From a virus: a stretch of DNA of 49,905 bases. This document shows, in pieces, positions 8,116-46,327 of this stretch; the first letter of the stretch is position 1; each line of letters opens with the position of its first letter. A program made the translations under genes and the position numbers. Location of the stretch: positions 1 through 49,905 of the IMG/VR virus record IMGVR_UViG_3300043424_000947; one strand, 5' to 3'. The notes under the pieces were generated by a model. It did no database searches. It was not told the DNA's origin and was given only the letters and a program-made list of their open reading frames with translations.

Positions 8116-8132
8116 TATTTATTATTAGTTAT

Positions 8133-8315: not shown

Positions 8316-8425
8316 CGCTCCATTGGGAGATATCAATGAAGCGATTATAATATTTATTGATCTTTTTAGAAAAACTAATATGATATTAAACTATGTTAAA
8401 TTGGAGTAGATTTACTGTTATGGTG
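8316..8425. repeat. degenerate copy of the gene start and upstream element of the 5902-6480 gene
   Basis: ATATCAATGAAGCGATTATA at 8332-8350 matches 6441-6460. TTGGAGTAGATTTACTGTTA plus TGGTG at 8401-8425 matches the element at 6534-6559. Order and orientation are kept, with about 23 bases missing between the two parts. It abuts the last BREX gene, so the BREX operon appears to have landed at or next to a duplicated module edge. Confidence 0.6.
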
Positions 8426-8431
8426 ATACCA

Positions 8432-9298: not shown

Positions 9299-9303
9299 TT
9301 TTT

Positions 9304-11349: not shown

Positions 11350-11361
11350 AATCGTATATTT

Positions 11362-14654: not shown

Positions 14655-14655
14655 G

Positions 14656-15837
14656 CTATACCTTTTTAAATATTTTCACTAAAAATGAAGTTGGTTGATC
14701 TTTAATAAATTCAGGTTCAGGGCTGCCATTCTTATTTAGTGCAGCTATTGCGGCTTTAACTCCAACATTAAATCCATTCACATAGCCCAGATTTTTGACT
14801 GCTTCAGATAAGCCTGGATTACGGTAATCATTTTCGTTAGGGAAATTTTCTGGACGTGCTTTACCATACAAACCACCAGCATTTGAAATCTCTATCCGGT
14901 CTGAAAACTCGTAAAATTTGATGGGAGCATTTGATTGATAATCTTTATGAATAACAGCATTAAATAGCAATTCTTTTACCGCTCGTAATGGATAGCTAGT
15001 TACATACTCTCCACCAAGTTCAGGTAAAACAACTTTCACAATATTTGCTTTAATGAACTCTTCCATTTGCCCTAATTGGGTTGTTAAGTCACCTTCGAAT
15101 CGGTGCTCAAAATCAAAATCACTCGCTTCATCTTCCCCCTTGAAGCGAACATATTGTACACTTGCACCAGGAATAAAAAAGCGAGGATTTGTTCCAAACA
15201 TCAGAATACCAGCATAGCTTGGACAATCTTCTTTGATGTCATAAAATTTCAAGGAAGCCAATTGTGATTTTAATTCTCTACCATTTTCTGCTAACGTATC
15301 TGCATCTATAGCAGAAGGCAAATACCTAAGTTTAAAAAGTTCAATACTAATATCCTCCAATGTACTACCCTTACAAGGTAGTACATCAAATGAACGAGCA
15401 AATGCAGAACGTTTTTCTGTTAAAATCCTTTCCTCTGCTTCATTGGCTGTTCCTTTTCTAATACCTGCTCTTACGCATAATTTACCTTTGAAACGAACAG
15501 GAGGTAAAAAATGAGGCTGTACTTCTACTACAGCCAATTCGCCATCAGGATATTCAAACTTAGTAACAATTATGCTTGGGGGAGGTACGATTCTTCCATC
15601 TGTCCTAAAATCAAGCAGTGTTTGAAGATTCTGCTCTGTAATGGTCATACCTGCTTTTGAACCATCATCATGTACCCCCACAATGAGGTAACCAGGTTGA
15701 TTATGGTTGGCTAAATCATTGGCAAATGAACAAATTGCTTCCCCAAATTTATTGGCATCATTTACAGAAATGGTTTTTTCTATTCGGTCTTGCTCCAATT
15801 GAGGAAGCAATTGTTCTAATTCTTCTTTAGTAATCAT
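14656..15837 (-). CDS. AlbA_2/Schlafen-like ATP-binding protein (COG2865-like) in the BREX operon
   Basis: 393 residues from the ATG at 15837, 4 bases after pglX; a longer frame would start inside pglX. The N-terminal AlbA_2 domain (about residues 15-130) includes ICSFANDLANHNQPGYLIVG and VHDDG at 36-60. The C-terminal half has a GHKL-type ATPase N-box (AVKELLFNAVIHKDY, about 278-292) and a DRIEISNAGG segment. This architecture is usually annotated as a putative transcriptional regulator or ATP-dependent helicase-like protein. Schlafen-like domains in some systems act as nucleases. Here it is followed by ParA and pglZ and is presumably part of this BREX variant. Confidence 0.85.
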   Translation of the reverse strand: MITKEELEQLLPQLEQDRIEKTISVNDANKFGEAICSFANDLANHNQPGYLIVGVHDDGSKAGMTITEQNLQTLLDFRTDGRIVPPPSIIVTKFEYPDGELAVVEVQPHFLPPVRFKGKLCVRAGIRKGTANEAEERILTEKRSAFARSFDVLPCKGSTLEDISIELFKLRYLPSAIDADTLAENGRELKSQLASLKFYDIKEDCPSYAGILMFGTNPRFFIPGASVQYVRFKGEDEASDFDFEHRFEGDLTTQLGQMEEFIKANIVKVVLPELGGEYVTSYPLRAVKELLFNAVIHKDYQSNAPIKFYEFSDRIEISNAGGLYGKARPENFPNENDYRNPGLSEAVKNLGYVNGFNVGVKAAIAALNKNGSPEPEFIKDQPTSFLVKIFKKV

Positions 15838-15841
15838 AATT

Positions 15842-18800
15842 TTACTTCTTAATTTTTTCTCTTGCAGCCTGTTTTTCTTCAAGACTAAGATGTATATCAT
15901 TATCCCTTACTTCTCCCCAATGACTTCCGGCAGGATTCTTTCCTCTATCCACACCCCATTTTACATTGAATCGGCTTCTGAGAACACCAGCCTCCACAAA
16001 CGGACGAATGTTTAATCGTACACCATCATTCAAGTCAGGTTCCCAACCGATGGGTTGTTGCTCTAGTGATTTCCAACGAACGAAAATGTCGTAAGGGGCT
16101 TCACCATGGAGGATGGCTACCAAGTTTTCCTTTAGTTTTTGTGCTGCACTGAACAAACCTTCCGCACCGCTTTCGCCAGCATTCTTTTTGGCTTCACAAC
16201 CGCGAATCCAATCATTTAAATATGTATATATGAGTTTGGAAAGATTATCCTTATCTAATTTGTGGTAATTGACCAAAGCAGAAAATCCATCTTTGCGGCC
16301 ATCCCAAATATGCCAGATGAAAGGTCTGTTTTGAAACTCTTTGCAATGTTGCACAAAAAACTCATCCCGCAGCCAGGCTTCTAAATTGGTGGAGTTTGCA
16401 CCTTCTTTTTGCAGGAGCTGGGTAATGGTTTGGTTGTTCCATTCTCCGGCAAAAACCTGTTGCAAATAATCTCTTAACCTTTCTGCACCGGCTTGTTCTG
16501 CATTTACGGATGGAATACAGAAAATACCATCCTCATCGGCTAAATGGTCAAAGGCTTTTATGGATTCTATTAATACTCTGGCTTCATCAGCCAATTCCAT
16601 TTCCGTATCACTCTCCGCAGGCCAGCGATAGCCCAGTACCCTGGCTAATCCAACTTGCAGTGGGTTTTCTGTTTTGATTGGATGCCCATGAAATAACCAC
16701 TGCGTAGGGTCATCGCTGTAAGGTTTGGGGAGACCGTTTGGATATTTTTCTTCAGCAACTTTCGTCCAATATTCAAAGTCAAAAGGGACTTTCGATAATG
16801 TTGAGTTTGTTATATTTAATTTGTTGTCAATTTTTCGTAAATCTTCTAAATATTTGGATGAGGAACAATAAGCCCAGAGGGCAGGTAAATGAAGTTCATC
16901 ATATGGAGTTATAATGGCTGTATTATTATCGAAAAGTTGCCCTAAATAAATTGTGCATGGTAAATTTGACATTTGCGAAACAGCAATTCCTTTCTTTCCC
17001 CATGCCTCTTTCCCTCTGAATGTGGCTCCATCTTGACATACTTCAGTCATTCGACCAAAACCATCCTCCCAAAATAAAATCATCTCTTTCCCTCCGTACA
17101 AAATGGGCGAGTCTACAGTTCCCTGTTCATATTTCCACCCAGAAAATAGTTTGTATTGTTCCCAAAAAGATTGTGTAAATCTCGGTTTATCACTAGACGC
17201 TATACCTTGCCATCCGTTTGCATAATTATTCAACAATTCAATATCTTCTAACTCTTCAAGCACTATTCTAGAATCAGGGTTTTTTAATTGTCCGTCCTGA
17301 ATTGTTTTCTTGAGATCTACACTTTTTAAAGAATAAGCTTTCCCTTCAGGCAACATTTCAGTAGAGACATCCATGCCAAAAAAAGAATGATTTTTAATTG
17401 GCTTTTCGCCAGACAAAACTAATAGCATTGCCTTCACAACCTCTCCTGATATTTCTATAAATGCACCTGGACCTAGCTTAACAATAAGATTGAATATTTG
17501 ATATTGCAATAATTGTTTTCTAAAACTTTCATAAGTTTTCAGAAATAACCAATTTTGGGGAATTACACAGCTAATAGTACCTCCCAATTTCAGCTGTTTT
17601 ATTAATCGATCTAGAAAAATAGTTGCTAAGTCTTTCCTTGCCTTAATAAAATATTGATCAACATACTTGATAAGAATATCAGTTTGTTTATTTCTACCGA
17701 GGTATGGAACGTTAGTGATTAAAAGCGTAAATTTTCTTGCTAATAATTGCCCTGCTTTTGCAATGCCTGCGGCCATCACCCCACGTTCCAATTGTTCTGT
17801 ATCAGCTTCATTCTCTAATGCTTTTTTTAATACCGGTTGTAGTTCTTCAAAGCTTGCAGTAAATGCATCTGCTTTAATAGTGGCAGGATCAATCAAGCTG
17901 CCCAGTTCAGGTGCTAATTGAAAATGTTCGTACAACATCTTCATACCGTTTTCCAAACGAAGTTTATCATCAGCTTTTTCTACTTTACCAACCAACTTCA
18001 TCCAATCTTCTACCTTGCCTTTTGGTGCAATGCCACTGCAAGCCAAATTCATTTCGGGTAGCTCTTTGTAATGCCCACAAAATTTCCAGGCGGTGAGTGC
18101 CAAATTAAAAGCGGCTATTTGCGTACATCTTGCATCCAATTCTAAGCCGTGCAGGTTTTCAGCAATTACTTTGTCGGTTGCTTGTTCTTTGGTTAAACCT
18201 TCTTCTTGCATTCGCAAAGCCGCAAATACCGGAAACAGCGAAGCCACAAAGTGCCCAGAACCCATGCAAGGGTCTAAGGAAGTTACTTCAGCAGTTTTAT
18301 CTGGCCATCCTTCAAACTTACCTGCGGCAGGCGTTCCATCTTCCAACAAACGCAGGTACTCAAACTTTATAGGTGGTTTTACTCCCGGGTTGCGGCTTAC
18401 CCACCATGCACCCAAAGTATTGTCTATCAGAAAATGAACCATGTAAGGCTCAGTAAACAACTGCGTAACGGCAGGCAGTTTTTCGCCATCTATCTTTTCG
18501 CCACTTTTATTGATTTTCTCTTTTGCTTCGCTTTGCCAAAACTGATACACCCAACCCAATGCATCATCAGCTATGAAGATTTGGTTTTCTAAGGCATCAA
18601 TAATGGTTTCCAGTTTTATGCGTTCGTCTGTTGCATAAGTAACCTGCATCAAAGGGTCATCTGTTCTAAAAATAACAGGTAGCATTTTGCTGGCATAGTT
18701 GGCGGCTGCATCCCATTTATCAACAAAGCCTTCTTCCTTTGCCAACTCTTCGCATTCTTCCATAGTTACTGGTACACCATCCGTATGCATCAGCATTTCA

Positions 18801-19096
18801 TTGGCTTCAAGGAACTTGGCAAACAACATTTTGTGCCAAGTTTCATAAGCTAGTTCATAACTAAGGTGGTCAATTTTTTGAGCTGCGCTACTAGGTAAAG
18901 CATCACCCAACAAACTGGCTTTACTCCGCAGGCTATTTCGTAAGTTGCGTTGCTCATTTGTCATGTGTGCAAAGGGCTCCGGATGGTCCACAGCCATGCC
19001 ATGTAATGCATTGAATGCACCTATTTCTGCCACTCTTCGTGCCTGCTTTACGGCTGTTTCCAGCGTATTTCGTTGTTGAGGTGTAAGTACTGCCAT
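15842..19096 (-). CDS. pglX: PglX, BREX adenine-specific DNA methyltransferase
   Basis: 1084 residues. The SAM-binding motif DPCMGSGHF lies near residues 275-283. The catalytic motif IV region reads TNVPYLGR near 459-466, so the usual NPPY is NVPY. PglX methylates a non-palindromic adenine motif to mark self DNA and is part of the exclusion complex. The ~600-residue C-terminal region is expected to hold the target recognition domain and helical parts. Base composition looks higher in GC than the flanking backbone. The start shares one base with the brxC stop. Confidence 0.93.
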   Translation of the reverse strand: MAVLTPQQRNTLETAVKQARRVAEIGAFNALHGMAVDHPEPFAHMTNEQRNLRNSLRSKASLLGDALPSSAAQKIDHLSYELAYETWHKMLFAKFLEANEMLMHTDGVPVTMEECEELAKEEGFVDKWDAAANYASKMLPVIFRTDDPLMQVTYATDERIKLETIIDALENQIFIADDALGWVYQFWQSEAKEKINKSGEKIDGEKLPAVTQLFTEPYMVHFLIDNTLGAWWVSRNPGVKPPIKFEYLRLLEDGTPAAGKFEGWPDKTAEVTSLDPCMGSGHFVASLFPVFAALRMQEEGLTKEQATDKVIAENLHGLELDARCTQIAAFNLALTAWKFCGHYKELPEMNLACSGIAPKGKVEDWMKLVGKVEKADDKLRLENGMKMLYEHFQLAPELGSLIDPATIKADAFTASFEELQPVLKKALENEADTEQLERGVMAAGIAKAGQLLARKFTLLITNVPYLGRNKQTDILIKYVDQYFIKARKDLATIFLDRLIKQLKLGGTISCVIPQNWLFLKTYESFRKQLLQYQIFNLIVKLGPGAFIEISGEVVKAMLLVLSGEKPIKNHSFFGMDVSTEMLPEGKAYSLKSVDLKKTIQDGQLKNPDSRIVLEELEDIELLNNYANGWQGIASSDKPRFTQSFWEQYKLFSGWKYEQGTVDSPILYGGKEMILFWEDGFGRMTEVCQDGATFRGKEAWGKKGIAVSQMSNLPCTIYLGQLFDNNTAIITPYDELHLPALWAYCSSSKYLEDLRKIDNKLNITNSTLSKVPFDFEYWTKVAEEKYPNGLPKPYSDDPTQWLFHGHPIKTENPLQVGLARVLGYRWPAESDTEMELADEARVLIESIKAFDHLADEDGIFCIPSVNAEQAGAERLRDYLQQVFAGEWNNQTITQLLQKEGANSTNLEAWLRDEFFVQHCKEFQNRPFIWHIWDGRKDGFSALVNYHKLDKDNLSKLIYTYLNDWIRGCEAKKNAGESGAEGLFSAAQKLKENLVAILHGEAPYDIFVRWKSLEQQPIGWEPDLNDGVRLNIRPFVEAGVLRSRFNVKWGVDRGKNPAGSHWGEVRDNDIHLSLEEKQAAREKIKK

Positions 19097-22000
19097 TATT
19101 TTAAAATGATTGAGCTTGATGCTTTCAATAAGGTTTCTAATTCAGTTTTCAGTTCTGCTACATAGCTATCTATCTCTGCTTGATTGCTGATTGTTTTGCG
19201 AGGAAGGCTGAATGTTTTTGCCTGAGGTGCAGATAATAAAATTGCATCTTCCAAAGCCGATTGAAACTGGCCAGGCAATGCAGCTTTTTTAGTATCCCAG
19301 GTATATAAAGAAGCTTTTTGTAATTGATTGAGCAATGCATAAGCATCAAGTGATTTAATCTCTGGCTTTACCAACAACTGATGTTTTGCTAAAATGCTAT
19401 GCTTTTGTTCAGGTGTGAGTTTTTTGAAATATTCATTGGCCTGTAAATCGGCAAAACGCAAATCATAGAGGATATTGTATTGCTCTTTGCGTTTGTTTAA
19501 TATAGTTAACAGCTTGTCTGATATAGCATTTAATATTGGTTGAATTAAATCAGGCTCTTGTAACAACAATCTGTTAATTTTTATTGCAGCGGTTTCAATT
19601 TTGAGTTGCTCCATATCAACTTCATCTGGAGCATGGTTATTTAATTCCACCAACAAGTTCCATTGAGGTTCTCTAGCTTCTACAAGTTTTGCCTTTGCAC
19701 TCCAATCGGTAAACTTATTATATAAGTCATCTTTTTGTTGAAGTATATCTAAGAGCCTTTCGTTGCCTTCTTTGTTTTCAATTTCCTTGATAAAATCAAT
19801 ATTGATAGGTTCTGGTCGTGGAGCATCACCACTTACTTTAGTAGCAAGAATTTTTAATTTATTTAGATAATCATTCGAGTATGGAAATATTTCATGGTTT
19901 GTTGGGCAGGTGATACCAGCATCCTGAAATAATTTTTTAATTGAAATTTTATCTTTAGCTGAAAGTACAATTATCTCCCTTTTGAAAGAGGCTTGGCTAA
20001 TTCGGGCAACATTTAAGTTAGTTTCGGTCGTAGATATATGCTGCATATTTTTCAGTACAACCAGCAATGTATCTATTGCATCCTGACTCCAACCATAAGG
20101 TGCTTTCATAAATTGATTTCGGATATCTTTACCAGTTTTAGAGCTATTGCCCATAAAACGTAGGATTTCAGAAGCAACAGGATGCTTGTCTATATCACCA
20201 GTATAGTTCACTGTATTTAATGCATCAGGATTACCTGCCAATGCTTTTGTTAAAGCTTGCCCCCAGTTTAAGAAATCTGCTTTGCTTTTGAACTCAGGAA
20301 ATTGTCTATCAGCTATACTGTTAAGGGCTTCTTGGATATTTTCTTTTAATGTGCCGGTTTGAACCTTGTTTCCACCTGCAAGTAGAATAATGGTTTCATT
20401 GCAAATTTTCTCAATCAAATCCTGTACAGCAGTTTTAGCCTGCGATTGACGGGTTTCCATACTCTTCTTTGCTTGTTCACCTTCCGGAGTAGAGGGTAAG
20501 CCCATTGCATTAATAGCTAAACCGGCAGCTAAGAATTTGATAATTTCCGTTCTAATTTCAGGGTCTCTGAATTTTTTTACAAAGGCATAAGCCAATGGAG
20601 CATTGTTACCTGCGGCACGAATTTCATTCTCTACGGTTGTTTCATTTTCAAACCACCCATCCCGTATCCATAAATTCAATTTATGATCGGTATTGGGTTC
20701 GGTGTCTTTGTCCCATAATTCAAAATCACGGACTATTTTTGAAGTTCCATGAGTAACACTAATTCCTTTGGTTTTGTCTTTGAAGTGAGCCACTATTTTT
20801 TCTCTTCGCAGAGAAAGAATTTGATCTTCACCTGAATTATTGAGTTTAATGTATTGCTTGGTAAATTCTTGTTCCCATTCAGCTCCAATTTTTGTTTGCA
20901 GTTTGTACTCATCATTAATTGGCATCAGTACCTTTTCATCCACCAATTTTTTAATCAGTCCTTTTACTTTGGTGCGGAATGCATCTGAGTTTACATTCAG
21001 ATTATCTATTAACAAATCCGCAATTGTATTATCATTGGATTTGATACCAGTATCAGAAATATTAGTAGAGATTTGGTCTAAAAGAAAAACAGCACTCAAT
21101 ATTCTGCCTTCTATTTCTTCATCACCACCTTTTGCTTTTTTACCTTGAATTAAATTGCTGGTGTCGTTCATTAGTAACCCTGATTGTATAAGGTCTGCAC
21201 GGGTTTGCGTAAAAATGAAATCAGCAGGTACAATAGCACCTACTTCTTTTTCTGCGATTGTTTTTAAGCTATCATCAATTAATCGAAGTTGATTACGTAA
21301 CTGACCTGATGTACCTGCTACATCCACAACCTGTAATACTTTGTACCATAACTTTCTTGTGGATGGTAGCAAAGGGTAATCAGCAACCAAAGTGTTTTTA
21401 TCGTCGGTGAGATATCCAAAAACTGTTCCTTCCAGATTACGTGAAATCTCACCTGAAGAAGCATTCAGCTTTGTGTTTAAAGGAGTAATGGCAGTAGGTT
21501 TCTTATCTAAAATTGTTTTACGAATAACAGTTTGAATATCTGTATTGGTTAACTGAATAGGAACCCTGAAACGTGCCATTAACCTTTGTAAATTAGGCGT
21601 ATCAGATAGTGCATTCTGTCCTGTTCCAATCAAAAAAAACTTCCCATCAAAACGTGAACTTAGATCCTCGGCTAATAATTGAACATCAAAAGCAAGATTT
21701 GCATCGGTTCCAATAAATTGTTGCACCTCATCCAAAATAATGATAGTGCAAGGGATTTTATTGCCAAATGTTAATGGAAGTATTTCTTCCCTGATGGTTT
21801 TTATAAAATCCTCACGGCCAATAGTTTCTGTCTTTGAAAATTGAGAAGTGAAAAGGTCTAACAATTTGCCTTCACTCTCAGCCAACTCTGGCTTCAATTG
21901 AAGAACAGCATTTGCAAGTGAGGTAGAAACAAAAATGTTTTCAATTTCGTTTTTTAAATTCTTACGATTTGTTTCCAAAATAGCTTTAACCCCATCATAG

Positions 22001-22530
22001 ATATTTTCTTTATGCAGCCAGTGTACAAATTTAAAATGATGATATTGTAGTGGAAGCCCTAATGAATTAAGGAAAATTTGTAAAAATGAATAGCGAATAT
22101 CTTTTGATGGAAAATCTCGTAGCGTGCCTGCGATAGATAACTTGCCTTGAATTTTCTGTTTACGATCAATTTCTACAAACAAGTCTTTAATATCCTGTGG
22201 TAATGGCTTTATACTTCGAGCTGTTTTACCATTCGGAAATTCAAAATCATTCCAAAGGTAACTAGCCATTTTTACCAAATGTGACTTACCGCTACCATAA
22301 AATCCACTTACCCAAAAAGTGGGTTGCACGGAACTATTATAGTTTTGAAGATAATATTCTAATATTTTTCTAAGTCCTTCATGATACTCGCCTTCACAGA
22401 CAAATGTTTTTAACTCATATTCAACGATTGAAAGGTCTTCTTTTTCATTAATAGTACTTATCTTGGCAACTCCTTCATTTCTGAGGTTTACTTGCTCTGG
22501 ATTCAGGGTAAATAATTCTTTATTCTTCAT
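19096..22530 (-). CDS. brxC: BrxC, large BREX P-loop ATPase
   Basis: 1144 residues. Walker A is GFYGSGKS at residues 76-83 and Walker B is TIIILDEVQQF near 264-274, followed by an LIGTGQNAL sensor-like segment. This is the typical BrxC/PglY arrangement, with an N-terminal AAA-like ATPase and a long helical remainder. BrxC is required for both methylation and restriction in characterised BREX systems. It is placed between brxB (10-base gap) and pglX (1-base overlap), the canonical type 1 order. Confidence 0.93.
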   Translation of the reverse strand: MKNKELFTLNPEQVNLRNEGVAKISTINEKEDLSIVEYELKTFVCEGEYHEGLRKILEYYLQNYNSSVQPTFWVSGFYGSGKSHLVKMASYLWNDFEFPNGKTARSIKPLPQDIKDLFVEIDRKQKIQGKLSIAGTLRDFPSKDIRYSFLQIFLNSLGLPLQYHHFKFVHWLHKENIYDGVKAILETNRKNLKNEIENIFVSTSLANAVLQLKPELAESEGKLLDLFTSQFSKTETIGREDFIKTIREEILPLTFGNKIPCTIIILDEVQQFIGTDANLAFDVQLLAEDLSSRFDGKFFLIGTGQNALSDTPNLQRLMARFRVPIQLTNTDIQTVIRKTILDKKPTAITPLNTKLNASSGEISRNLEGTVFGYLTDDKNTLVADYPLLPSTRKLWYKVLQVVDVAGTSGQLRNQLRLIDDSLKTIAEKEVGAIVPADFIFTQTRADLIQSGLLMNDTSNLIQGKKAKGGDEEIEGRILSAVFLLDQISTNISDTGIKSNDNTIADLLIDNLNVNSDAFRTKVKGLIKKLVDEKVLMPINDEYKLQTKIGAEWEQEFTKQYIKLNNSGEDQILSLRREKIVAHFKDKTKGISVTHGTSKIVRDFELWDKDTEPNTDHKLNLWIRDGWFENETTVENEIRAAGNNAPLAYAFVKKFRDPEIRTEIIKFLAAGLAINAMGLPSTPEGEQAKKSMETRQSQAKTAVQDLIEKICNETIILLAGGNKVQTGTLKENIQEALNSIADRQFPEFKSKADFLNWGQALTKALAGNPDALNTVNYTGDIDKHPVASEILRFMGNSSKTGKDIRNQFMKAPYGWSQDAIDTLLVVLKNMQHISTTETNLNVARISQASFKREIIVLSAKDKISIKKLFQDAGITCPTNHEIFPYSNDYLNKLKILATKVSGDAPRPEPINIDFIKEIENKEGNERLLDILQQKDDLYNKFTDWSAKAKLVEAREPQWNLLVELNNHAPDEVDMEQLKIETAAIKINRLLLQEPDLIQPILNAISDKLLTILNKRKEQYNILYDLRFADLQANEYFKKLTPEQKHSILAKHQLLVKPEIKSLDAYALLNQLQKASLYTWDTKKAALPGQFQSALEDAILLSAPQAKTFSLPRKTISNQAEIDSYVAELKTELETLLKASSSIILK

Positions 22531-22540
22531 TGTTGTTATT

Positions 22541-23086
22541 TTATAATGTTATTGGCCTTGCTAAATAATCCCATCCATCTCTGGCATCTAACAAACGATA
22601 ATGATTCTGTTCAAACTCCCCTGGAAAAAAGATTAGTAAACGACCTTTAAAATCTTTGTCGCAGCTTTTAATTATTTCTGATAGTCGTGCAAAGCCAAAA
22701 ATTGAAGATACATCTTTTAATGCTATCAATGTATCCTCATCTTGTTCAATTTTATTTATCTCATTTTTTAAGAATTGAATCGCAAAAGGAATAAAAGAAG
22801 CTTCCAACTGATCCACTATCACTTTTGGTTTTTGAAAATAGCTTTCTTTGTATTCATGGTTAGCCATCCAAGAAGGGAAGCATTGTTTTAATGAAATGTC
22901 TTTCCATTTTTTACCTGCTTTAATGGCAGCTCTTTCAAAATCACCTAAATGCAAATCAACCTTACGTTGTTCTGCTGGGTCGTACACCAAAAACCAAATT
23001 CTTTCTTGGCCTGACAATGCAGATGACCACGGTTCATTTATAACCTTTTCATAAGCCTCAACCAATAGATCAATTCGTGTTTTCAT
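22541..23086 (-). CDS. brxB: BrxB (DUF1788)
   Basis: 181 residues, a typical DUF1788 length. The C-terminal signature LLIFFPGEFEQNHYRLLDAR then DGWDYLARPI is diagnostic for BrxB, a small core protein of type 1 BREX whose biochemical role is not settled. It overlaps brxA by 17 bases and precedes brxC by 10 bases. The start is the ATG at 23086. Confidence 0.9.
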   Translation of the reverse strand: MKTRIDLLVEAYEKVINEPWSSALSGQERIWFLVYDPAEQRKVDLHLGDFERAAIKAGKKWKDISLKQCFPSWMANHEYKESYFQKPKVIVDQLEASFIPFAIQFLKNEINKIEQDEDTLIALKDVSSIFGFARLSEIIKSCDKDFKGRLLIFFPGEFEQNHYRLLDARDGWDYLARPITL

Positions 23087-23804
23087 TTATTTCAATTTTG
23101 TTTAAGAGGTTGGTAAAATTTATTGCAGTTACACTACCTGCATATTGATACTGCATTAAATCTTTCTTTGCACATTCGATAGCCAATTCTCTGAGCTTAC
23201 TTTCATAAAGGCACAAAGCATTTACACCGATACTGCCCCAAATAAAATCTCCTCTGTCACCATTGATATAAGCAAGTAAAAAGGCAAAGCAAGCAACACG
23301 ATAGGTTATTTCAGGTTGTGTTCTGATATTCTTAACCTTACCATCAATAAAACCAGCTTGTTTCCATGAACTTGCAAGGTTTTGAGCCATTGACCGACGG
23401 GTATTTGCTGAATATTTATTGGGATGATATTTTTCTATATTTTCTTCAAAAGATTCAACAGTTGTTTTATTTCCAATTGTTGTATTTGAAATTACGTTAA
23501 CACTTTGAGCCAATAAATAATCTTGATTTATAGCATATATAAAGGCAATTAAGGGCTTCTCAGATGAATCTGAAATCATCCAAAAATATTTTAATGCTTT
23601 AAAAAATGGATTTTCAAGATCGAAAGAATATATCTTTGTAAGAAATATTGTAGTACGCTTTATTCCATCCGCAGATTTTTTCCCTGTAACATTATTAGAC
23701 ATTGCTTCAATATATGAATCGTTTTCGATTGCATTAGCCATAACTTTCTCAAGTTCCGAGAACATAATTGTCCGATGCGTATGGATGGTTATAGATTTAT
23801 TCAC
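23070..23804 (-). CDS. brxA: BrxA (DUF1819-like), first gene of the BREX operon
   Basis: Up to 244 residues from a GTG at 23804, or 231 from the ATG at 23765; neither has a clear ribosome-binding site. The central region (KYSANTRRSMAQNLASSWKQ then AGFIDGK) has the layout of BrxA/DUF1819 winged-helix proteins, which bind DNA. Position before brxB supports the call. It is longer than typical BrxA (~200 residues). A promoter-like sequence and an inverted repeat lie about 120-200 bases upstream. Confidence 0.82.
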   Translation of the reverse strand: MNKSITIHTHRTIMFSELEKVMANAIENDSYIEAMSNNVTGKKSADGIKRTTIFLTKIYSFDLENPFFKALKYFWMISDSSEKPLIAFIYAINQDYLLAQSVNVISNTTIGNKTTVESFEENIEKYHPNKYSANTRRSMAQNLASSWKQAGFIDGKVKNIRTQPEITYRVACFAFLLAYINGDRGDFIWGSIGVNALCLYESKLRELAIECAKKDLMQYQYAGSVTAINFTNLLNKIEINENTN

Positions 23805-35107: not shown

Positions 35108-35830
35108 TCAAAACAACCTCATCTCCAACTCACTATACAGAAACTTACTTCTAACTTCTTCAACATTAGAATTTGCACCTTTGGTTGAGATAAGTTTAGA
35201 AATTGTATAAGCCTCTATCAAATTTTCATCAAAAGGTTTAGCAAATGAAAGTATTTCATTTTGAGTAAGAGAATTATTTAACCAAAGTGATTCATTTTCA
35301 GGTGTTAAAATCACAGGCATACGTTTACCTTCATTATGAATACGAGCCATTAATGGGTTTGCTTCACATGTAAGTATTGAAAAAGATTGTATAAAATCGC
35401 CTGTTTGTGGGTTTTTCCAAGTATCATAAATGCCTGCCATTGCAAATGGCTCATTGTCAATTAAATGGATGTAATGAGGGTATTTCTGTTTGTTAAATGT
35501 CATCCATTCATAAAATCCATCACTCAAAACCAAACACCTATTTGATTGAATCGCTGTTTTAAATGAAGGTAATTCAAAAGCTGTTTCTGAACGTGCGTTC
35601 AAGGTTTTAGACCTATACTCATTTATTTTTGTGCTATCCTTCACCCAATTAGGTATCAAACCCCACGACATTGAATCGATTACTCCTGGTGTAGTTATTA
35701 CCGACCATTTAGGAAAATCAAATCCATTGGCATGAAAAATTGGCTTATAAACATATTTGTTTTTCAACTCAGCTTTAAAACGATTTTCAAGTTTTTTGGC
35801 TTCGGTGGTGAGTGAATTATGAAAACACAT
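35108..35830 (-). CDS. SRAP domain protein (HMCES/YedK family)
   Basis: 240 residues, a normal SRAP length. Catalytic Cys2 follows the initiator Met (MCFHNS). Other active-site residues are N78 (LNARSETA), E108 (SDGFYEW) and H165 (HNEGKRMP). SRAP proteins form a covalent thiazolidine link with abasic sites in single-stranded DNA and protect them. They are often near translesion polymerase genes in bacteria; here a umuC fragment sits 3 bases upstream. Start at the ATG at 35830. Confidence 0.93.
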   Translation of the reverse strand: MCFHNSLTTEAKKLENRFKAELKNKYVYKPIFHANGFDFPKWSVITTPGVIDSMSWGLIPNWVKDSTKINEYRSKTLNARSETAFELPSFKTAIQSNRCLVLSDGFYEWMTFNKQKYPHYIHLIDNEPFAMAGIYDTWKNPQTGDFIQSFSILTCEANPLMARIHNEGKRMPVILTPENESLWLNNSLTQNEILSFAKPFDENLIEAYTISKLISTKGANSNVEEVRSKFLYSELEMRLF

Positions 35831-35833: not shown

Positions 35834-35962
35834 CTAAATTTTTATCGTTAAAAGTTCATCAAAACGAGTGGTATAACGTGGCGAAAGCTTTTCTTGTTTC
35901 ATTTTCCATTGTTTACCCAAACCCTGTGCAGCCAAACGAATAACAACCAATAAGGCTATTAA
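35834..35962 (-). pseudogene. umuC (Y-family polymerase) C-terminal remnant
   Basis: The minus-strand frame ending at a TAG at 35834-35836 reads VIRLAAQGLGKQWKMKQEKL and SPRYTTRFDELLTIKI. This is the C-terminal DUF4113 tail of UmuC-type translesion polymerases (compare the SPRYTTRW pattern). An in-frame TGA at 35963-35965 precedes it and the polymerase core is absent. So a umu operon was partly deleted, leaving the tail joined to the intact SRAP gene. A 37-codon frame from an ATG at 36026 overlaps it in another phase and is probably not real at its 3' end. Confidence 0.82.
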
Positions 35963-36085
35963 TCAACTCTTCATGTGTTTCTACTATTAAACACAAATCA
36001 TTTCCTAATAAATCTAAATTTTCCATTTTCTTAATTCTTTTAGTTCGTTTGAATATTTAATCAACTCTGCTTTATCAAAATCACT

Positions 36086-36265
36086 TTAACTATTTTTCAT
36101 AAATCGTTTAATTTTAACTCTATTCCCATTTGGCAAAACGAACAATGAATCATTTGATTCTGAATCAAAAACCACATAAGGAAGTCCCTTAGCGTGTTTT
36201 TCTTCTTGAACACGTTTTATTGCTACATTACCAGCATCTATAATTTTATTAAATATGTCGCTCAT
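36086..36265 (-). CDS. small hypothetical protein (59 residues)
   Basis: The start is taken as the ATG at 36265 (MSDIFNKIIDAGNVAIKRVQ), 2 bases after the stop of the preceding 48-codon frame. A longer reading from a TTG at 36418 would run out of phase through a conserved frame and is rejected. The protein ends YVVFDSESNDSLFVLPNGNR then VKIKRFMKNS, a compact strand-rich tail. No family is recognised. It is third in a run of small genes made by tandem duplication. Confidence 0.55.
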   Translation of the reverse strand: MSDIFNKIIDAGNVAIKRVQEEKHAKGLPYVVFDSESNDSLFVLPNGNRVKIKRFMKNS

Positions 36266-36267: not shown

Positions 36268-36414
36268 TCAATTTTTTATGTTGAGTTTCATTTTCAACCA
36301 TTCCGACGCCTTTTTCATGTCTAGCCTTAATGATTCCTTTTCTTCTTCCGTTAAAGGTATAGAGCCATTTAAGATATTGTACCTCTCTTTTGGGAATTGT
36401 GTTTCTTCGGTCAG
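36268..36414 (-). CDS. 48-codon frame B2, in phase after the stop of A2
   Basis: It begins with CTG directly after the TGA that ends A2 (36415-36417), in the same frame, and ends at a TGA at 36268-36270. The translation (LTEETQFPKERYNILNGSIP and a SEWLKM end) matches B1 at most positions, and many base differences are silent in this frame, so the frame is coding or was until recently. There is no ATG or GTG near its start. Readthrough of the A2 stop, or a CTG start, is required. Confidence 0.5.
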   Translation of the reverse strand: MTEETQFPKERYNILNGSIPLTEEEKESLRLDMKKASEWLKMKLNIKN

Positions 36415-36708
36415 TCAATCAAATGACTTTTTGTTTGGAAACTCTTCTCTTAACTTTTTAAGTATTCCCTTATATTTTTCTACTTCAACTCTTACAAAAT
36501 CTTTATCTTGATTTACTTGTAAATTTTCATAAATCAAATGAGTTTCGATAGCTTTATTTCGATAAAGACTATCTAATTCAATGTCTCCATTTTCTCTAGC
36601 TTTCCTTGCTAAATTACTATATTTAGCAGTAAGGCTTGGCATTATTTCTTTCAAATCTTCTGCTAATTCAAAGGCTTCAAATCCAAAATAGTCTATTTCT
36701 TTTTCCAT
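36415..36708 (-). CDS. hypothetical protein A2 (tandem duplicate)
   Basis: 97 residues from the ATG at 36708 (MEKEIDYFGFEAFELAEDLK). It is a close paralogue of A1: shared SLTAKYSNLA, ARENGD, NKAIETHLIY and KKLREEF blocks. The protein is helical and charged and lacks A1's extra polar N-terminus. It ends at TGA, followed by CTG and the conserved B frame. Function unknown. Confidence 0.65.
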   Translation of the reverse strand: MEKEIDYFGFEAFELAEDLKEIMPSLTAKYSNLARKARENGDIELDSLYRNKAIETHLIYENLQVNQDKDFVRVEVEKYKGILKKLREEFPNKKSFD

Positions 36709-36710
36709 AT

Positions 36711-36857
36711 TTAATTTTTTATGTTGAATTGCATTTTCAACCATTCCGACTTTTTTTTCATGTCTTGCATTAATAATTCCTGCTCAGATTCAGATAACGG
36801 AATAGAGCTATTTAAGATATTGTATCTCTCTTTTGAAAATTGTGTTTCTTCGGTCAG
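36711..36857 (-). CDS. 48-codon frame B1, in phase after the stop of A1
   Basis: It starts with CTG directly after the TAA ending A1 (36858-36860), runs 48 codons in the same frame (LTEETQFSKERYNILNSSIP to SEWLKMQFNIKN) and stops 2 bases before the A2 ATG. Length, frame and sequence match B2 exactly in layout. The stop differs (TAA against TGA), yet the following CTG and frame are kept. Confidence 0.5.
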   Translation of the reverse strand: MTEETQFSKERYNILNSSIPLSESEQELLMQDMKKKSEWLKMQFNIKN

Positions 36858-37223
36858 TTAGTCAAATGTCATTTTGTAATGAAACTCTTCTCTTAACTTT
36901 TTAAGTATTTCCTTATACTTTTCTACTTCAACTTTAACTAAAACTTTATTACGATTTAATTTAAGTTCTTTATATATTAAGTGAGTTTCTATAGCTTTAT
37001 TTTGATAAAAATCATCTAACTCATTGTCTCCATTTTCTCTTGCTTCGCTTGCTAAATTACTATATTTAGCTGTAAGGCTTGACATTGTTTCTTTTACATC
37101 TTCTGCCAACAAATAAGCATCAAATCCAAAATAGTCGATTTCTTTTTCTGAATTAGATTCTGTTTGTACATCTTGATTAGAATTTGATTCATTTCCCGAA
37201 TTTGTATGGTCTTTTGCTTTCAT
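36858..37223 (-). CDS. hypothetical protein A1 (tandem duplicate)
   Basis: 121 residues from the ATG at 37223; a TTG at 37271 upstream is less likely. A polar N-terminus rich in Asn, Ser and Glu (about 25 residues) precedes the conserved helical region EKEIDYFGFDAYLLAEDVKE, ending in KKLREEFHYKMTFD. It is the promoter-proximal gene of the duplicated run. The divergent plus-strand gene starts at 37386, so regulation may be shared. No known family. Confidence 0.65.
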   Translation of the reverse strand: MKAKDHTNSGNESNSNQDVQTESNSEKEIDYFGFDAYLLAEDVKETMSSLTAKYSNLASEARENGDNELDDFYQNKAIETHLIYKELKLNRNKVLVKVEVEKYKEILKKLREEFHYKMTFD

Positions 37224-37385
37224 ATTTATGATATTTTCAAATTTCTGCAATTTATTATACGTTATTCTCAATTAGCGAGAATGAAAAAATGTCAATAAAA
37301 TTTGTTTAGTTTTATTTAAATTGCTTATTTTAACGTTACAGTTTTAGTATTTGATATTTTATTGTTCGTTTTAAAGGTTTAAGGT

Positions 37386-37793
37386 ATGGGATTAGAGACA
37401 TTTGAAGCAATTTCTCAACAACTAGATGAAACTAGGATGTTGATGATGTTTGGTCAATCGTTTGATTTACCATCAGACAGCATTATTTTAGATTATTTTG
37501 AAAACCTAGCAGTGTATGTTATCACAAATTTTGAGTTGCCACACATTAGTAAAAGCTTACTATGTAATTATTTACAAGTTGAAAGTGTTGTTAATAATTT
37601 GGAAATCATAGATGCACTCAAACAAAAACATCAATCATTAACTCATCAATTCAATATTGAAAAACCATTATTAGCAATAGGAGAGTGCTTTAAAAATGGA
37701 ACTATTCGCCACTTAACAATTGATGAAATTACTAGAATAAATTATTTAATTGCCAAGCTCCATACAGAAATTGCTATGGTTGTATATTCGTAA
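37386..37793 (+). CDS. hypothetical protein
   Basis: 135 residues, all-helical by appearance, with no signal peptide or membrane segment and no recognised family. It is 20 bases upstream of the excisionase-like HTH gene and co-directional, so they probably form a two-gene unit. Start at the ATG at 37386. Confidence 0.6.
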   Translation: MGLETFEAISQQLDETRMLMMFGQSFDLPSDSIILDYFENLAVYVITNFELPHISKSLLCNYLQVESVVNNLEIIDALKQKHQSLTHQFNIEKPLLAIGECFKNGTIRHLTIDEITRINYLIAKLHTEIAMVVYS

Positions 37794-39866: not shown

Positions 39867-41186
39867 ATGGAAATTTCACCCGAAAATAAAGCCCAAATTA
39901 AATCTGCATTTGCAAATTTGAAAACCAAAGATGACCTTTTGGTACTATTAAATATTGCAAAAGAATTGCTTTATGGTGAAAAATTATTTCCATTTCAATT
40001 AAAACAATTGAATTATCATGCTCATTTTGAGTTGAATGAAAACAGATATTTTAAGTTTTCAATAAAAAAGAAATCCGGAGCTACACGTACCATTCATGCA
40101 CCAAACAAAGGCTTAAAAGAAATTCAAAAATGCTTAAACCTTGTTTTACAAATTGTTTATGAAGACCATCAAAGCAAAGCAGCCACAGGTTTTGTACCCA
40201 ACAAATCAATAGTTGATAATGCCAAAGTGCATACCAACATGCATTATGTGTATAATATCGATTTGAAAGATTTTTTCCCAAGTATTGAACAGGCTAGGGT
40301 AAGAGCTCGACTTCAATTAGCACCATTTAATTTAAATGATGCTAACGGAACTACTTTACTAGCCAATGTAATAGCTAATATTTGTTGTCACCAAATGGAA
40401 GTAGAGCGTTGGAATAACGATACGCAAAACTGGGAAATACAAACCCGAAAAGTATTGCCACAGGGAGCACCAACCTCACCAACATTAACCAATATTATTT
40501 GCCAACAATTAGATTTTTATTTAACAGCTGTAGCAAAAAGGTTTGGTTTGCGTTACTCTCGTTATGCTGATGATATTACCTTTAGTTCATTACACAATGT
40601 TTATCAAAAAGATAGCGATTTTTTGATAGAACTACATCGTATTATTAAGGCCCAAAACTTTCATATAAAAGAAGCAAAAACACGTTTACAAAAGCATGGT
40701 TACAAACAAGAAGTAACTGGCTTAATTGTGAACGAAAAAGCCAATGTACCATTACGTTACATTAAAGCATTGAGAATGTGGTTATACCTTTGGGAAAGAT
40801 ATGGTTTTGAAAGAGCTAATGGCTATTTTTTACCAGAATATTTAAAAGACAAAGGGCATATAAAAGATACCTTACCTAATATGATGCAAGTAATTGCTGG
40901 CAAACTCGAATACCTAAAAATGGTAAAAGGGTATGATAATGCTACTTATTTGGGTTTGAAAAGCAGGTTTGATAAGTTAACAAAACCACCTAAAATTAAT
41001 ACTAATCAAAGTAACATTTTATATTCTCCTTTTGAAGATACAAGGGAAATAAAAGAATATAAAAGGATTCTTGAAGAGTTAGATAATATAAAAAAAATAC
41101 AGAGGACAAAACATTTAAATGAAGTTTTAGATGTACTTTTAAAATATGGTTTACATAAAGCCATGAAATTATATACACCAAAGTAA
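39867..41186 (+). CDS. retron reverse transcriptase
   Basis: 439 residues, longer than the common ~310-380. Motifs in order are NAKVH (118-122, the retron NAxxH), DLKDFFPS (132-139, motif A), QGAPTSP (199-205), RYADD (232-236, catalytic Asp pair) and VTGLIVN (283-289, the retron VTG region). It would copy part of the adjacent RNA into branched multicopy DNA. The extra C-terminal ~130 residues are charged and helical and may hold the effector. It is followed by the HEPN gene after 2 bases. Confidence 0.93.
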   Translation: MEISPENKAQIKSAFANLKTKDDLLVLLNIAKELLYGEKLFPFQLKQLNYHAHFELNENRYFKFSIKKKSGATRTIHAPNKGLKEIQKCLNLVLQIVYEDHQSKAATGFVPNKSIVDNAKVHTNMHYVYNIDLKDFFPSIEQARVRARLQLAPFNLNDANGTTLLANVIANICCHQMEVERWNNDTQNWEIQTRKVLPQGAPTSPTLTNIICQQLDFYLTAVAKRFGLRYSRYADDITFSSLHNVYQKDSDFLIELHRIIKAQNFHIKEAKTRLQKHGYKQEVTGLIVNEKANVPLRYIKALRMWLYLWERYGFERANGYFLPEYLKDKGHIKDTLPNMMQVIAGKLEYLKMVKGYDNATYLGLKSRFDKLTKPPKINTNQSNILYSPFEDTREIKEYKRILEELDNIKKIQRTKHLNEVLDVLLKYGLHKAMKLYTPK

Positions 41187-41188
41187 AA

Positions 41189-41914
41189 ATGAGTAAAGAA
41201 AAAAAAGAGCAATTAACTAAACTTCTTGATTTTATATTTGAAATTTCGCAAGAAGATGGAAACCAATGGTTTAAGGAAGAACTAAAAAATAGAGTTTTTA
41301 GAGATATAAACCCCTATTCCAATAAAAATCTGTTGCTCGATTTAAAAAAAGATACTTTTAAAATTTTAGATTTTCTAAATATTTCACCAGAACTATCTAT
41401 TGATTACAGTTTTATAAAACATACACTTTTAAGAAAACGACTTGAATTGGATAATTTAAGAATGGAAAATGCTAGATATGATTTAGTAGAAAAAGACGAA
41501 ATGCTTCGTTTATACAACTACATTATTAACGCTTTTTATCAAATTGAAAATCTAATTAACTTTTACTATCACGAAAAATACAAAACCATAGAGCGTATTT
41601 TGGCTCATTTAGAATCAATAGAGGGAACAAATTTTAAACGAAAAGAAGAACGAAATTTGGGAGATATTACTATTTCTGCAAAAATATTTGCATTTAATGC
41701 AACATTCTATAAGTTTAAAAGTAAAGAAGATTATACTGGATATAATATTGATAGTTTAAGATTAATACGAAACGAGAGTTCGCATAGAATAACTAGAATT
41801 AAAAGTATTGAAAATGAGAATAAACGTTTACACGATTTTCTAAAACACGCCACTTTTGATACTGTTTTAGCTTTGGTTAGAGGGGTAGCTGATAAGGTAA
41901 AGGATAATGTTTGA
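41189..41914 (+). CDS. HEPN-motif protein, candidate retron effector
   Basis: 241 residues, mostly helical. RNESSH at 194-199 is a canonical HEPN Rx4H motif in the right setting: a helical domain with NAFYQIENLINFYYHEKY before it and IDSLRLIRNESSHRI around it. HEPN proteins are typically RNases used as toxins or abortive-infection effectors. It starts 2 bases after the reverse transcriptase stop, so it is very likely translated together with it. In known retrons the product of the RT-linked gene is a toxin held inactive by the RT-msDNA complex; the same role is inferred here. Confidence 0.75.
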   Translation: MSKEKKEQLTKLLDFIFEISQEDGNQWFKEELKNRVFRDINPYSNKNLLLDLKKDTFKILDFLNISPELSIDYSFIKHTLLRKRLELDNLRMENARYDLVEKDEMLRLYNYIINAFYQIENLINFYYHEKYKTIERILAHLESIEGTNFKRKEERNLGDITISAKIFAFNATFYKFKSKEDYTGYNIDSLRLIRNESSHRITRIKSIENENKRLHDFLKHATFDTVLALVRGVADKVKDNV

Positions 41915-41959
41915 GGTGGAATATGATTGTTTTTATGTTTAAATTAAAATTTTAAAATT

Positions 41960-44900
41960 ATGCAGTTTAAAGCAGGATATATAGCAGATAGTATAGCTAA
42001 AGTAATTATTGATTATAAAGCTAAACTAGATAAATATAATGAAAAAGATAATTATAAATTTCTTCAAATTGATGGATTACTGGAGTATGTATCTTCATTT
42101 GATGTAAATTTTAAGGATAATTTAAGCGTAGATTTCCATAAAATAAACCCAGTTTTAGCAACTATAAATAATATTATAACTAGAGGGTTACCAACTAGAT
42201 TACCTGTTTTTATTGAAGAACTTTTTTCGCAAATTGGTATTACAAAACCTAATGAAAGAGAGTTTGAATTTGACTTTTCCAAAGCCAATAAAGATATAGA
42301 ATTTGAAACTATATTTGAATTGTTGCATATTTTGGAACCCAAATTAGAAATTTCTCAAAAACAATATGGAGGTTTACCAGGAAGTTTCTCTGAATGGAAA
42401 TTTTTAGATGAAACATTAAAAGATTATCCATTTGCAAAGCAAATTTTACAATCTCAAAGAGATTTTTCGACAATTGATAAAAAACTTGCAGGAGGTAAAA
42501 CTTTAGATTTTTCATTTGAATTTCCTTATAAAATTATTTCTAATTCCTTAAATGGAAAACTAAGAAAAGGTTTAATTTTTGAATTTGATGGCCCACACCA
42601 TAAAAGACAAGATTTTAAATATTACGATAGGTATAGAGATAATGTAGCGGATGAAAAAGATTTTGAAACTTTAAGACAATCTTATGAAGAATTAGGATTA
42701 AATCCTTTAATGAATGATTTTTTAAAAGAGGATATTTTTAAAATATTTAACATTAACTACAATAGAGAAACAATTGCATTTGAAAATGAATTTTCTTTGA
42801 TATTTATACCATTAGCTGTTGCAAGAATACAAAAAACATTAATTGAGCTTTTAATTAGAAAACCAGATTTAATAAAAAAAGAATGTTTGAAAATAGCTAT
42901 TGTTGAGAGAGATTTTCCATGTGGTGCAATAGCTTTAAAATCATTAAAAGATTTTATAAATAACATTAATTCGTTATTGGAAAAAGATGATAATTTAATT
43001 TTGCCAAAGTTTGATTTAACAATTTTTGATAATAAAAATTGGCTTAAAGACGAAAGATTGCACTTAGACGCTAATAGACAAAATGAAGAATATTTTAAAT
43101 TAAATACATTTGATATTGTAATTGACCATGCAATATTAAGACGTTCAAATATTTATAAAGAAAACGATTTTATTTGCGAAAATGCAATAAAAATAAGGTC
43201 ATCTCATTATTTTGACACTAGCTACGGAAGAAAAATATATTGTTCAGATATACTAAATTATAAGCAATTAGTTGAAAAACAAGATGATGGTTCTTATAAG
43301 TCAATTAAGGAAAATGAAAAGCATATTAACTTTTTTATTCAAAATATTTTTAGAAAAAAAGAATTTAGAGAAGGACAATTACCTATTATTTCAAGAGCTT
43401 TACAACAAAAGCCTGTTATTGGTTTACTCCCAACAGGTGGTGGTAAATCTTTGACTTTTCAATTACCAACTTTTCTTCAGCCAGGTTTATGCTTAGTAGT
43501 TGACCCTATAAAGTCTTTAATGGAAGACCAAGTAAGAGTTTTGAAGGAGAATTGGATTGACTGTTGTGAGTATATTAATTCAAATGATAAAAGACAAGAC
43601 AAAACTAAAAAGTTAATTGATTTTAGATTTGGTGAAACCATGTTCTTATTTGTTTCTCCTGAAAGGTTTGTAATGGAAGATTTTAGGAGTATAATTAAAA
43701 ATATTAACTCTAATAAATTTGGTTTGGCTTTTTCATATTGTGTCATTGATGAGGTGCATTGCGTTTCTGAATGGGGGCACGATTTTAGAACTACATATTT
43801 GATGTTAGGGAAAAATGCCCAAAAATTTGCAACTACAAAAAGTAAAAAGCCCGTTACACTTATAGGCTTAACAGCTACTGCTTCATTCGATGTATTAACT
43901 GATATTGAAAGGGAGTTAAAAATTGAGCATAATGATATTGCTAATGCAATTATCTTGATTGAAAATACAATTAGACCAGAATTATTTTTTAGAGTAATTG
44001 ATGTTTCTGGAAAAAATAGAATGGAAGAGTTGAATAAAGATTTTCAAAATATTGGAAAGAATTTATCAATTATAAATAATTCAGATTTGCTTTTACGTTC
44101 ACAGAAACATCATTTTGAAGAATTTGATAAAAAAGATTTTGCGACAAAAGAAACCAAAGATTTAAATGATAATGCGAAAATAACATTCGAATACAATTCA
44201 AGATATTTAATTGAAAAACCTTTAGAAACATATTCTCAAAATGATTTTTTCTCAATTGTATTTTGCCCTGTAATAGGAGAAAAACTAGATAATAATGGAG
44301 ATTGGTCTAATAAAAATGGAGTACGATATGTAGAATCAAAATTAGACTCAAATTCAAAAGGATTCTTTTTTGCAAGTGATGATGATCAAATTGGTGAAGA
44401 TGTGCATAAACATTTTGAAAATTTTACTACAAATAAAACTAAACATATTGTTTGTACAAAGGCTTTTGGGATGGGGATTGATAAAAAAGATATTCGTTCT
44501 ACTTATCACTATTTTTATTCTGGATCTTTAGAAAGTTTAGTTCAGGAAGCTGGCAGGTCTGGTAGAGATAAAAAAATATCAATTGCAAATATTTTAATTT
44601 CTAAAAGCAGATTTGTTAAACTTGATGTCTATAAGTTTTTTAGAGAAAATATGAATTTAAAACTACTCACTGAAAACAAGGAAACGAGGAAATCTATTAG
44701 ACAAGAATTTGAAAAAGTTTGGATTGAATCTACTCCTATTGATGTGAATTTTTCTACTTATGAAGAAGCAATAAACAAGATAGATAATACAGATTTTAGT
44801 TTACAAAGAAGAGATAATACTAGGTATAATATTTTATCTGATTCAAGTATATTAGATTTGAAATCTAAATTAAAAGAAAAAGATAATGATAATAATTATA

Positions 44901-46327
44901 AATTTATTATTCAAAAATATCATGATAGAAATATTCATGATTACTTTCACGAATTAACTTTTAAAGGGGTTGATATTGAGAAAAGTCAGTTATTAAATTT
45001 ATTTAAAGTCAAAGAATTTCAAATTATTGGTGGGGGATTTATTGAAATACAAAATCAAGATACTTTAATAAATGAATTTGATAAATGTGAAACTGAACAA
45101 TTTAATTTTATTATTACCGCAGAAAAAAAATATACAGATGCAAGTTTAGTTATTTGTCAACTTTTGAATGTTAATCCTGCACAAAATCCAAATTTTGGTA
45201 ACGATACAAATCTAGAAAGGGTTCATAAGGCTTATTTATATTCAAATGACTTTCAAGATTTTCTTTTTCAATTAGAAGAAAAAGATGTTAAAAGACTAAG
45301 TGGAATTTCTGGTAAAGTTAAAGATGATTTACTTTTCGTTTATAATAGAGATAGAGAGACTTCTAGTGACACTGGAAGATTGATTTATCGTATGCATTCA
45401 ATAGGTTTATTAATTGATTATGAAATTGATTACAATAAAAATAATCTTTACAAATGTACATTTAGGAAATATAATTCAATTGAGCCCTATATTGATGAAA
45501 TTGAAATTTATTTAAGACGTTATTTGTCTGAAAATTCTGCATTAGAAAGTATTTGGAAACTGAAAGAAAGATTAACAAAACATGAAATACTAACCGATAA
45601 AATTCTTGAATGTCTATATTTTTTATCTGAGTTTTCTTATAAAGAAGTTGCTGATAAAAGAAAAAGGGCAACAGATGAAATTGAAAGTATTTTAATTAAA
45701 AGTGTTACTGAAACCAACTATATTGAAGATAGTTTTCAGCAAAATTTATTTATCAAAGAGCAAATATTTTTTTACTTTAATGCAAAATATGCAAGAAGTG
45801 GTTTTAAAATAGAAGGAAAACCATATTCTCTTTTAGATGATTATAAAGGTACTTTGCTTACTAAGGAAGAAATATTATATAAGTATTTAGGTACAGAAGA
45901 AAATTTAGGAGTATTTAAATTGGAAGGTACAGAACAGAACAATTATAAACACATGATGGGTTCTTGCAAAAAAATCTTACGTTCATTGAGTGAAACTGAT
46001 TTGAAAAAAGAATGGTTGTTAAGGTTATTGAAAGCTTTTTCAATGTATTCAGTAAATAATGAATCGTATATTTCTGAAGCAAATGAAGATCTTGAAATTG
46101 GTTTTATTAATATATATAATGATTCGGAGTTTCACAAAAATAAATTTGAGACTATTGAGCCAATTTTTAATTATTATTTTGATATTTTAGAAAAAAATAT
46201 TCAAAAGGAAAATAAATCATTCTTGGATATTAAATTAATTAGAAATAAGATTTTAATAGAAATGCAAACTATGTCAATAGATAAACTAATTACAAACAAT
46301 AAATTTAGAACTGAGATTTATGCCTAA
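41960..46327 (+). CDS. nuclease-like domain fused to RecQ-like helicase
   Basis: 1455 residues. Around residues 204-227 a restriction-nuclease or Vsr/RAP-like motif is visible (GLIFEFDGPHHKRQDFKYYD). The helicase core follows: motif I LLPTGGGKS (~489-497), motif II VIDEVH (~595-600) with VSEWGHDFR typical of RecQ, motif III GLTATAS, motif V FGMGIDKKDIR (~833) and motif VI QEAGRSGRD (~861-869). The last ~580 residues are unassigned. RecQ-type helicases unwind 3'-5'. The gene follows the HEPN gene by 45 bases with no terminator, and its 3' end overlaps the next gene. Confidence 0.85.
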   Translation: MQFKAGYIADSIAKVIIDYKAKLDKYNEKDNYKFLQIDGLLEYVSSFDVNFKDNLSVDFHKINPVLATINNIITRGLPTRLPVFIEELFSQIGITKPNEREFEFDFSKANKDIEFETIFELLHILEPKLEISQKQYGGLPGSFSEWKFLDETLKDYPFAKQILQSQRDFSTIDKKLAGGKTLDFSFEFPYKIISNSLNGKLRKGLIFEFDGPHHKRQDFKYYDRYRDNVADEKDFETLRQSYEELGLNPLMNDFLKEDIFKIFNINYNRETIAFENEFSLIFIPLAVARIQKTLIELLIRKPDLIKKECLKIAIVERDFPCGAIALKSLKDFINNINSLLEKDDNLILPKFDLTIFDNKNWLKDERLHLDANRQNEEYFKLNTFDIVIDHAILRRSNIYKENDFICENAIKIRSSHYFDTSYGRKIYCSDILNYKQLVEKQDDGSYKSIKENEKHINFFIQNIFRKKEFREGQLPIISRALQQKPVIGLLPTGGGKSLTFQLPTFLQPGLCLVVDPIKSLMEDQVRVLKENWIDCCEYINSNDKRQDKTKKLIDFRFGETMFLFVSPERFVMEDFRSIIKNINSNKFGLAFSYCVIDEVHCVSEWGHDFRTTYLMLGKNAQKFATTKSKKPVTLIGLTATASFDVLTDIERELKIEHNDIANAIILIENTIRPELFFRVIDVSGKNRMEELNKDFQNIGKNLSIINNSDLLLRSQKHHFEEFDKKDFATKETKDLNDNAKITFEYNSRYLIEKPLETYSQNDFFSIVFCPVIGEKLDNNGDWSNKNGVRYVESKLDSNSKGFFFASDDDQIGEDVHKHFENFTTNKTKHIVCTKAFGMGIDKKDIRSTYHYFYSGSLESLVQEAGRSGRDKKISIANILISKSRFVKLDVYKFFRENMNLKLLTENKETRKSIRQEFEKVWIESTPIDVNFSTYEEAINKIDNTDFSLQRRDNTRYNILSDSSILDLKSKLKEKDNDNNYKFIIQKYHDRNIHDYFHELTFKGVDIEKSQLLNLFKVKEFQIIGGGFIEIQNQDTLINEFDKCETEQFNFIITAEKKYTDASLVICQLLNVNPAQNPNFGNDTNLERVHKAYLYSNDFQDFLFQLEEKDVKRLSGISGKVKDDLLFVYNRDRETSSDTGRLIYRMHSIGLLIDYEIDYNKNNLYKCTFRKYNSIEPYIDEIEIYLRRYLSENSALESIWKLKERLTKHEILTDKILECLYFLSEFSYKEVADKRKRATDEIESILIKSVTETNYIEDSFQQNLFIKEQIFFYFNAKYARSGFKIEGKPYSLLDDYKGTLLTKEEILYKYLGTEENLGVFKLEGTEQNNYKHMMGSCKKILRSLSETDLKKEWLLRLLKAFSMYSVNNESYISEANEDLEIGFINIYNDSEFHKNKFETIEPIFNYYFDILEKNIQKENKSFLDIKLIRNKILIEMQTMSIDKLITNNKFRTEIYA

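Follow-up and report, generated by a model that had tools for sequence, protein, structure and literature searches.

In bacterial operons that use termination-reinitiation (PMC6728339, PMC10666635, PMC12548453), a stop codon adjoins the start codon of a short downstream gene on the same strand. Reinitiation works best where two genes overlap or lie very close together, its efficiency dropping steeply as they move apart (PMC10666635), and Shine-Dalgarno motifs are hardly used in Bacteroidetes for either initiation or reinitiation (PMC6728339). The locus described here likewise has adjacent stops and starts, short downstream genes, a tight same-strand arrangement and no Shine-Dalgarno motif. However, while the known junctions of the NTGA and TAATG types restart at ATG, GTG or TTG, mostly with a 4- or 1-nt overlap, the restart that we propose here is at CTG and at a distance of 0 nt. 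CTG accounts for 0.024% of bacterial starts and has 0.86% of the efficiency of AUG in E. coli (PMC11497404), and switches of a start codon to CUG are very rare (PMC5622118). As in the bacterial CTG-start genes (PMC11497404), the CTG opens an otherwise ordinary frame; unlike in those genes, it abuts an upstream stop codon in two diverged copies. Programmed readthrough, which yields C-terminally extended proteins, also relies on an in-phase extension behind a stop codon, but here the stop codon is TAA in one copy and the 3' structure is not shared.

The window, by which we mean the whole stretch of DNA analyzed, is the complete IMG/VR record IMGVR_UViG_3300043424_000947 (49,905 bp, G+C 0.316), and most likely belongs to a mobile element or virus of Bacteroidota. 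Table 1 shows the features of the locus and of its surroundings.

Table 1. Coordinates of the features discussed in the text (positions in the window)
Feature	Position	Strand	Description
A2	36858..37223	-	121 aa; start ATG, stop TAA; first gene of the operon
B2	36711..36857	-	CTG + 47 codons + TAA; abuts the A2 stop, in phase
A1	36415..36708	-	97 aa; ATG 2 nt past the B2 stop, stop TGA
B1	36268..36414	-	CTG + 47 codons + TGA; abuts the A1 stop, in phase
C	36086..36265	-	59 aa; ATG 2 nt past the B1 stop, stop TAA
umuC remnant	35843..36026	-	DUF4113 (UmuC C-terminus); no catalytic domain, no start, frame broken upstream
SRAP gene	35108-35830		Adjoins the umuC remnant
Palindrome	37257..37278		ATTCTC-GCTAATT-GAGAAT; in the gap that separates A2 from the divergent gene 37386-37793; read directly from the sequence
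BREX set	9304-23804	-	BrxA, BrxB, BrxC-position ATPase, PglX, PglZ, BrxL; on a record classed as viral
ParA-like ATPase	13674-14654		Between PglZ and PglX
Gene with weak match to pAgo-associated models	14656-15900		Between PglZ and PglX
Reverse transcriptase/helicase group	39867-46327	+	Defence-type reverse transcriptase, then a 241-aa protein, then a 1455-aa RecQ/DpdF-like helicase

The first-pass annotation had described two tandem copies of a gene A, each followed by a stop codon (TAA in one, TGA in the other), CTG and an in-phase frame of 48 codons, and the coordinates bear this out. The order on the minus strand is A2 (stop TAA), B2, A1 (stop TGA), B1 and C. In both copies, the stop of A is followed after 0 nt by the CTG that opens the 48 codons of B, and 2 nt separate the stop of B from the ATG of the gene behind it, so that the spacing by which coupled pairs are recognized (same strand, few nucleotides) was found twice over. 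Starting at codon 2 of A1 (EKEIDYFGF), the duplicated unit reaches to the ATG of the next gene and comprises 438 nt with 71 differences and 0 gaps (84% identity). Within it, A1 and A2 are 73% identical in protein sequence, with an omega of 0.331; A2 has in addition an N-terminal extension of 24 residues that is absent from A1. A second in-frame ATG upstream of A1, at 36744, overlaps B2. The palindrome upstream of A2 is, from its sequence, a possible operator.

It had also been stated that B has no normal start codon, and we found that ATG, GTG or TTG opens neither frame: the earliest in-frame ATG of B1 comes at codon 33, and those of B2 stand at codons 30 and 33. If B is taken away, the operon is left with two gaps of 149 nt for which there is no explanation. 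The in-phase position of B, which had been offered as a clue, does not serve as one: because the gap to the stop of A is 0 nt, B is in phase with A by definition, and phase adds nothing separate. The in-phase tails behind 43 genes checked in the window have a median of 7 codons, and only four exceed 48 codons, all four being ordinary following genes. The third gene, C, had been cited as a weaker case of the same kind. Its tail of 23 in-phase codons (36085-36014) is present, but as the 10th longest of the 43 it falls in the normal range and is at the level of chance; its end overlaps the umuC remnant.

We then compared the two copies of B. The earlier claim that the B proteins match, with many silent differences, stands in part, since silent changes are enriched, but it was overstated: protein identity is 77% (11 of the 48 residues differ), and the 21 nucleotide differences divide into about 7.5 synonymous and 13.5 nonsynonymous changes. 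The dN/dS comparison of B1 with B2 that the first-pass annotation had proposed gave an omega of 0.334 (Nei-Gojobori), equal to that of A. At 15% nucleotide divergence, neither copy has an internal stop or an indel. When the 21 differences were placed randomly on B, the P of a stop-free frame with 11 or fewer residue changes was 0.009. Neutral simulation with the same criterion gave P values of 0.003-0.008 at a transition/transversion (ti/tv) rate ratio of 1, 0.008-0.013 at 2 and 0.020-0.035 at 4; the observed differences are 9 transitions and 12 transversions, which argues against a high ratio.

The codon usage of B was also analyzed. In the sense frame the two copies scored 0.16 and 0.17. Gene stretches as long as B average 0.23 (s.d. 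0.09), and stretches that are off frame but free of stops average -0.01 (s.d. 0.10); only 2-4% of the latter reach the score of B. Of the other two sense frames, one is interrupted by stops in B1 as well as in B2, and the second is open in B1 alone. On the antisense strand, one frame is free of stops in both copies and has an omega of 0.43 and codon scores of -0.16 and -0.17. The omega, the neutral P values (0.003-0.035) and the gene-like codon usage give moderate support to the claim that the frame was kept after duplication. B shows moderate rather than strong signs of coding constraint and is probably, not certainly, protein-coding.

For the translation of B we infer termination-reinitiation. 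We favor the reading in which A2-B2-A1-B1-C form a compact operon for small proteins and B is a real 48-residue protein restarted at CTG, and since CTG is a weak start codon, we hold the probability of this reading at about one half. A ribosome that ends on A would remain on the message and restart at the CTG abutting the stop codon (0 nt), so that B would be made as an fMet-initiated protein. It would then terminate at the stop of B and pass by the same route to A1 or C, whose ATG lies only 2 nt further on; this 2-nt spacing is best explained if ribosomes do get to the stop of B. The poor CTG start would keep B low relative to A, and A and B, which were duplicated together, would be partners encoded in the accessory region of a mobile element from Bacteroidota. 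A CTG start is permitted by NCBI table 11, and an SD-like motif was found at 0 of 34 starts here. Against a restart at CTG, purifying selection would be expected to let ATG, GTG or TTG arise by one mutation, and the keeping of CTG in the two copies counts as a single duplication event.

The first-pass annotation had offered stop-codon readthrough or CTG initiation as explanations. CTG initiation fits the anatomy better (the 0-nt and 2-nt spacings, and TAA in one copy), and readthrough gained no positive evidence. In readthrough, some ribosomes would decode the TAA or TGA to produce an A-B fusion (the 97 or 121 residues of A, plus 1, plus 48), in line with a B that is in phase and whose length and sequence were kept in both copies, and the TGA of A1 is the leakiest stop codon in E. 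coli (PMC11126739). However, the TAA of A2 is the least leaky (PMC11126739), no stem-loop common to both copies was found behind the stop codon (z 0.3 and 0.5), a suppressor candidate is absent, with no tRNA gene within the window, and TAA, TGA and TAG are ordinary stops there (27, 8 and 8 genes). The TAA in one copy, the missing common stem-loop and the missing tRNA gene make readthrough the less likely of the two explanations, and we regard it as distinctly improbable; programmed readthrough at both TAA and TGA, kept through the duplication for the sake of a fixed fraction of A-B fusion, is highly improbable. With sequence upstream of the A1 stop included, the RNA fold was strong (z -3.1), but it had no match at A2 (z -1.1). 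An AlphaFold model of the A-B fusion, with the stop codon read as W, was of low confidence (pLDDT 52) and spoke neither for nor against a joint fold. Stop reassignment under an alternative code was rejected: read with table 11, the BREX genes and others stay open, and TAA, TGA and TAG all terminate genes.

If A-B was formerly a single gene that acquired a nonsense mutation before the duplication, B would be a remnant that is still unbroken and is translated rarely or not at all. Such a mutation would leave B in phase and without a spacer, as observed, and the TGA and TAA stops of the two copies are one transition apart. The neighborhood also holds decayed sequence: the umuC remnant between C and the SRAP gene, recognized by a DUF4113 match (E 5e-15) in a 42-residue frame, has no start and a broken frame, so some genes in the region have decayed, and decay is a live rival. 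It nevertheless appears unlikely, as the omega of B equals that of A after the duplication and neither B copy has acquired a stop or an indel at this divergence; both copies would need to have stayed open by chance. Translation could also be partial, covering only the 16 residues from the codon-33 ATG or a short part that extends the next gene upstream (the MVEN.. ATG), the rest being leader or spacer. The codon-33 ATG is in frame in both copies, and ATGGTTGAAAATG occupies the same position in each, in the frame of the gene that follows; but codons 1-32, with an omega of 0.30, are at least as constrained as codons 33-48 (0.58) and have gene-like codon usage. The omega of codons 1-32 speaks against translation from the internal ATG alone, and we hold partial translation to be clearly improbable. 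That B is under no selection, being open by chance with a similarity merely left over from the duplication, seems very improbable indeed: the 48 codons offer little data, the joint neutral P rises to 0.035 at a high ti/tv ratio and an antisense frame is likewise open in both copies, but the joint P is 0.003-0.013 at ratios of 1-2, and the codon usage of B also stands against it.

The layout is real and tidy, its likely explanation is a modest one, a duplicated coupled pair with a proposed restart at CTG, and the novelty would be small unless readthrough were shown. If B is made from the CTG, the locus would provide a natural, duplicated case of restart at the weakest NTG codon directly at a stop codon, B would be missed by gene finders limited to ATG, GTG and TTG, and the pair would offer a small construct in which to study reinitiation in Bacteroidota, which lack Shine-Dalgarno guidance. 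Readthrough, if true, would be unusual among bacteria; decay, if true, would be ordinary.

We searched for relatives of the genes in several collections. No relatives of A, B or A-B were found in viral contigs by protein search, alignment or three hand-made degenerate patterns, with candidates checked by tblastn, and none in genome contigs, phage records or plasmid records. Profile searches in whole genomes found none in 395 genomes of the phylum of genome G003, in 291 and 390 genomes of the order of genome G002, or in 241 relatives of G002; these draws overlap, and the positive control on the record itself worked. Weak profile matches that we opened were lipoproteins of about 300 residues, BamD-like (helical repeats, judged by eye), and were rejected as relatives; a second set were chance stretches in unrelated proteins. 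The pair is absent from the related elements IMGVR_UViG_3300037833_000032, CALPQG020000279.1 and CALPQG020000115.1. The search for relatives of C found none, and none of A, B and C matched a family significantly in Pfam, PHROGs or NCBIfam.

The window also carries a BREX set. The ATPase at 19096-22530 is called BrxC from its position in the BREX set alone. PglX proteins carried on plasmids of Haliscomenobacter and Runella are about 65% identical to the PglX of the window. Other genes encode an SRAP peptidase, a defence-type reverse transcriptase and a WYL regulator, and the reverse transcriptase/helicase group is probably a defence operon. The window helicase is 89-94% identical in protein sequence to a contig of a metagenome-assembled genome (CALPQG020000279.1). 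That genome is titled Bifidobacterium breve, and since its contigs CALPQG020000279.1 and CALPQG020000115.1 have 89-94% protein identity to this Bacteroidota-type element, the title looks wrong.

At one end of the window, a block of five genes (proteins of 142, 154, 161 and 300 aa plus a 310-aa ATPase; 183-3494, minus strand) seemingly recurs, by eye, in the same order in IMGVR_UViG_3300037833_000032 (6803-10212, plus strand), where the match was confirmed for the ATPase only (42% identity). Most proteins of the block have no family match, and it may be the module for the virion or for packaging in a little-known virus of Bacteroidota. A small unlisted gene at 5079-5309 (minus strand), 3' of the stop of 5309-5890, encodes a probable membrane protein (MQYKYVFMFVGLAVVTGTICYFWK...); it has its own ATG and is an ordinary in-phase neighbor.
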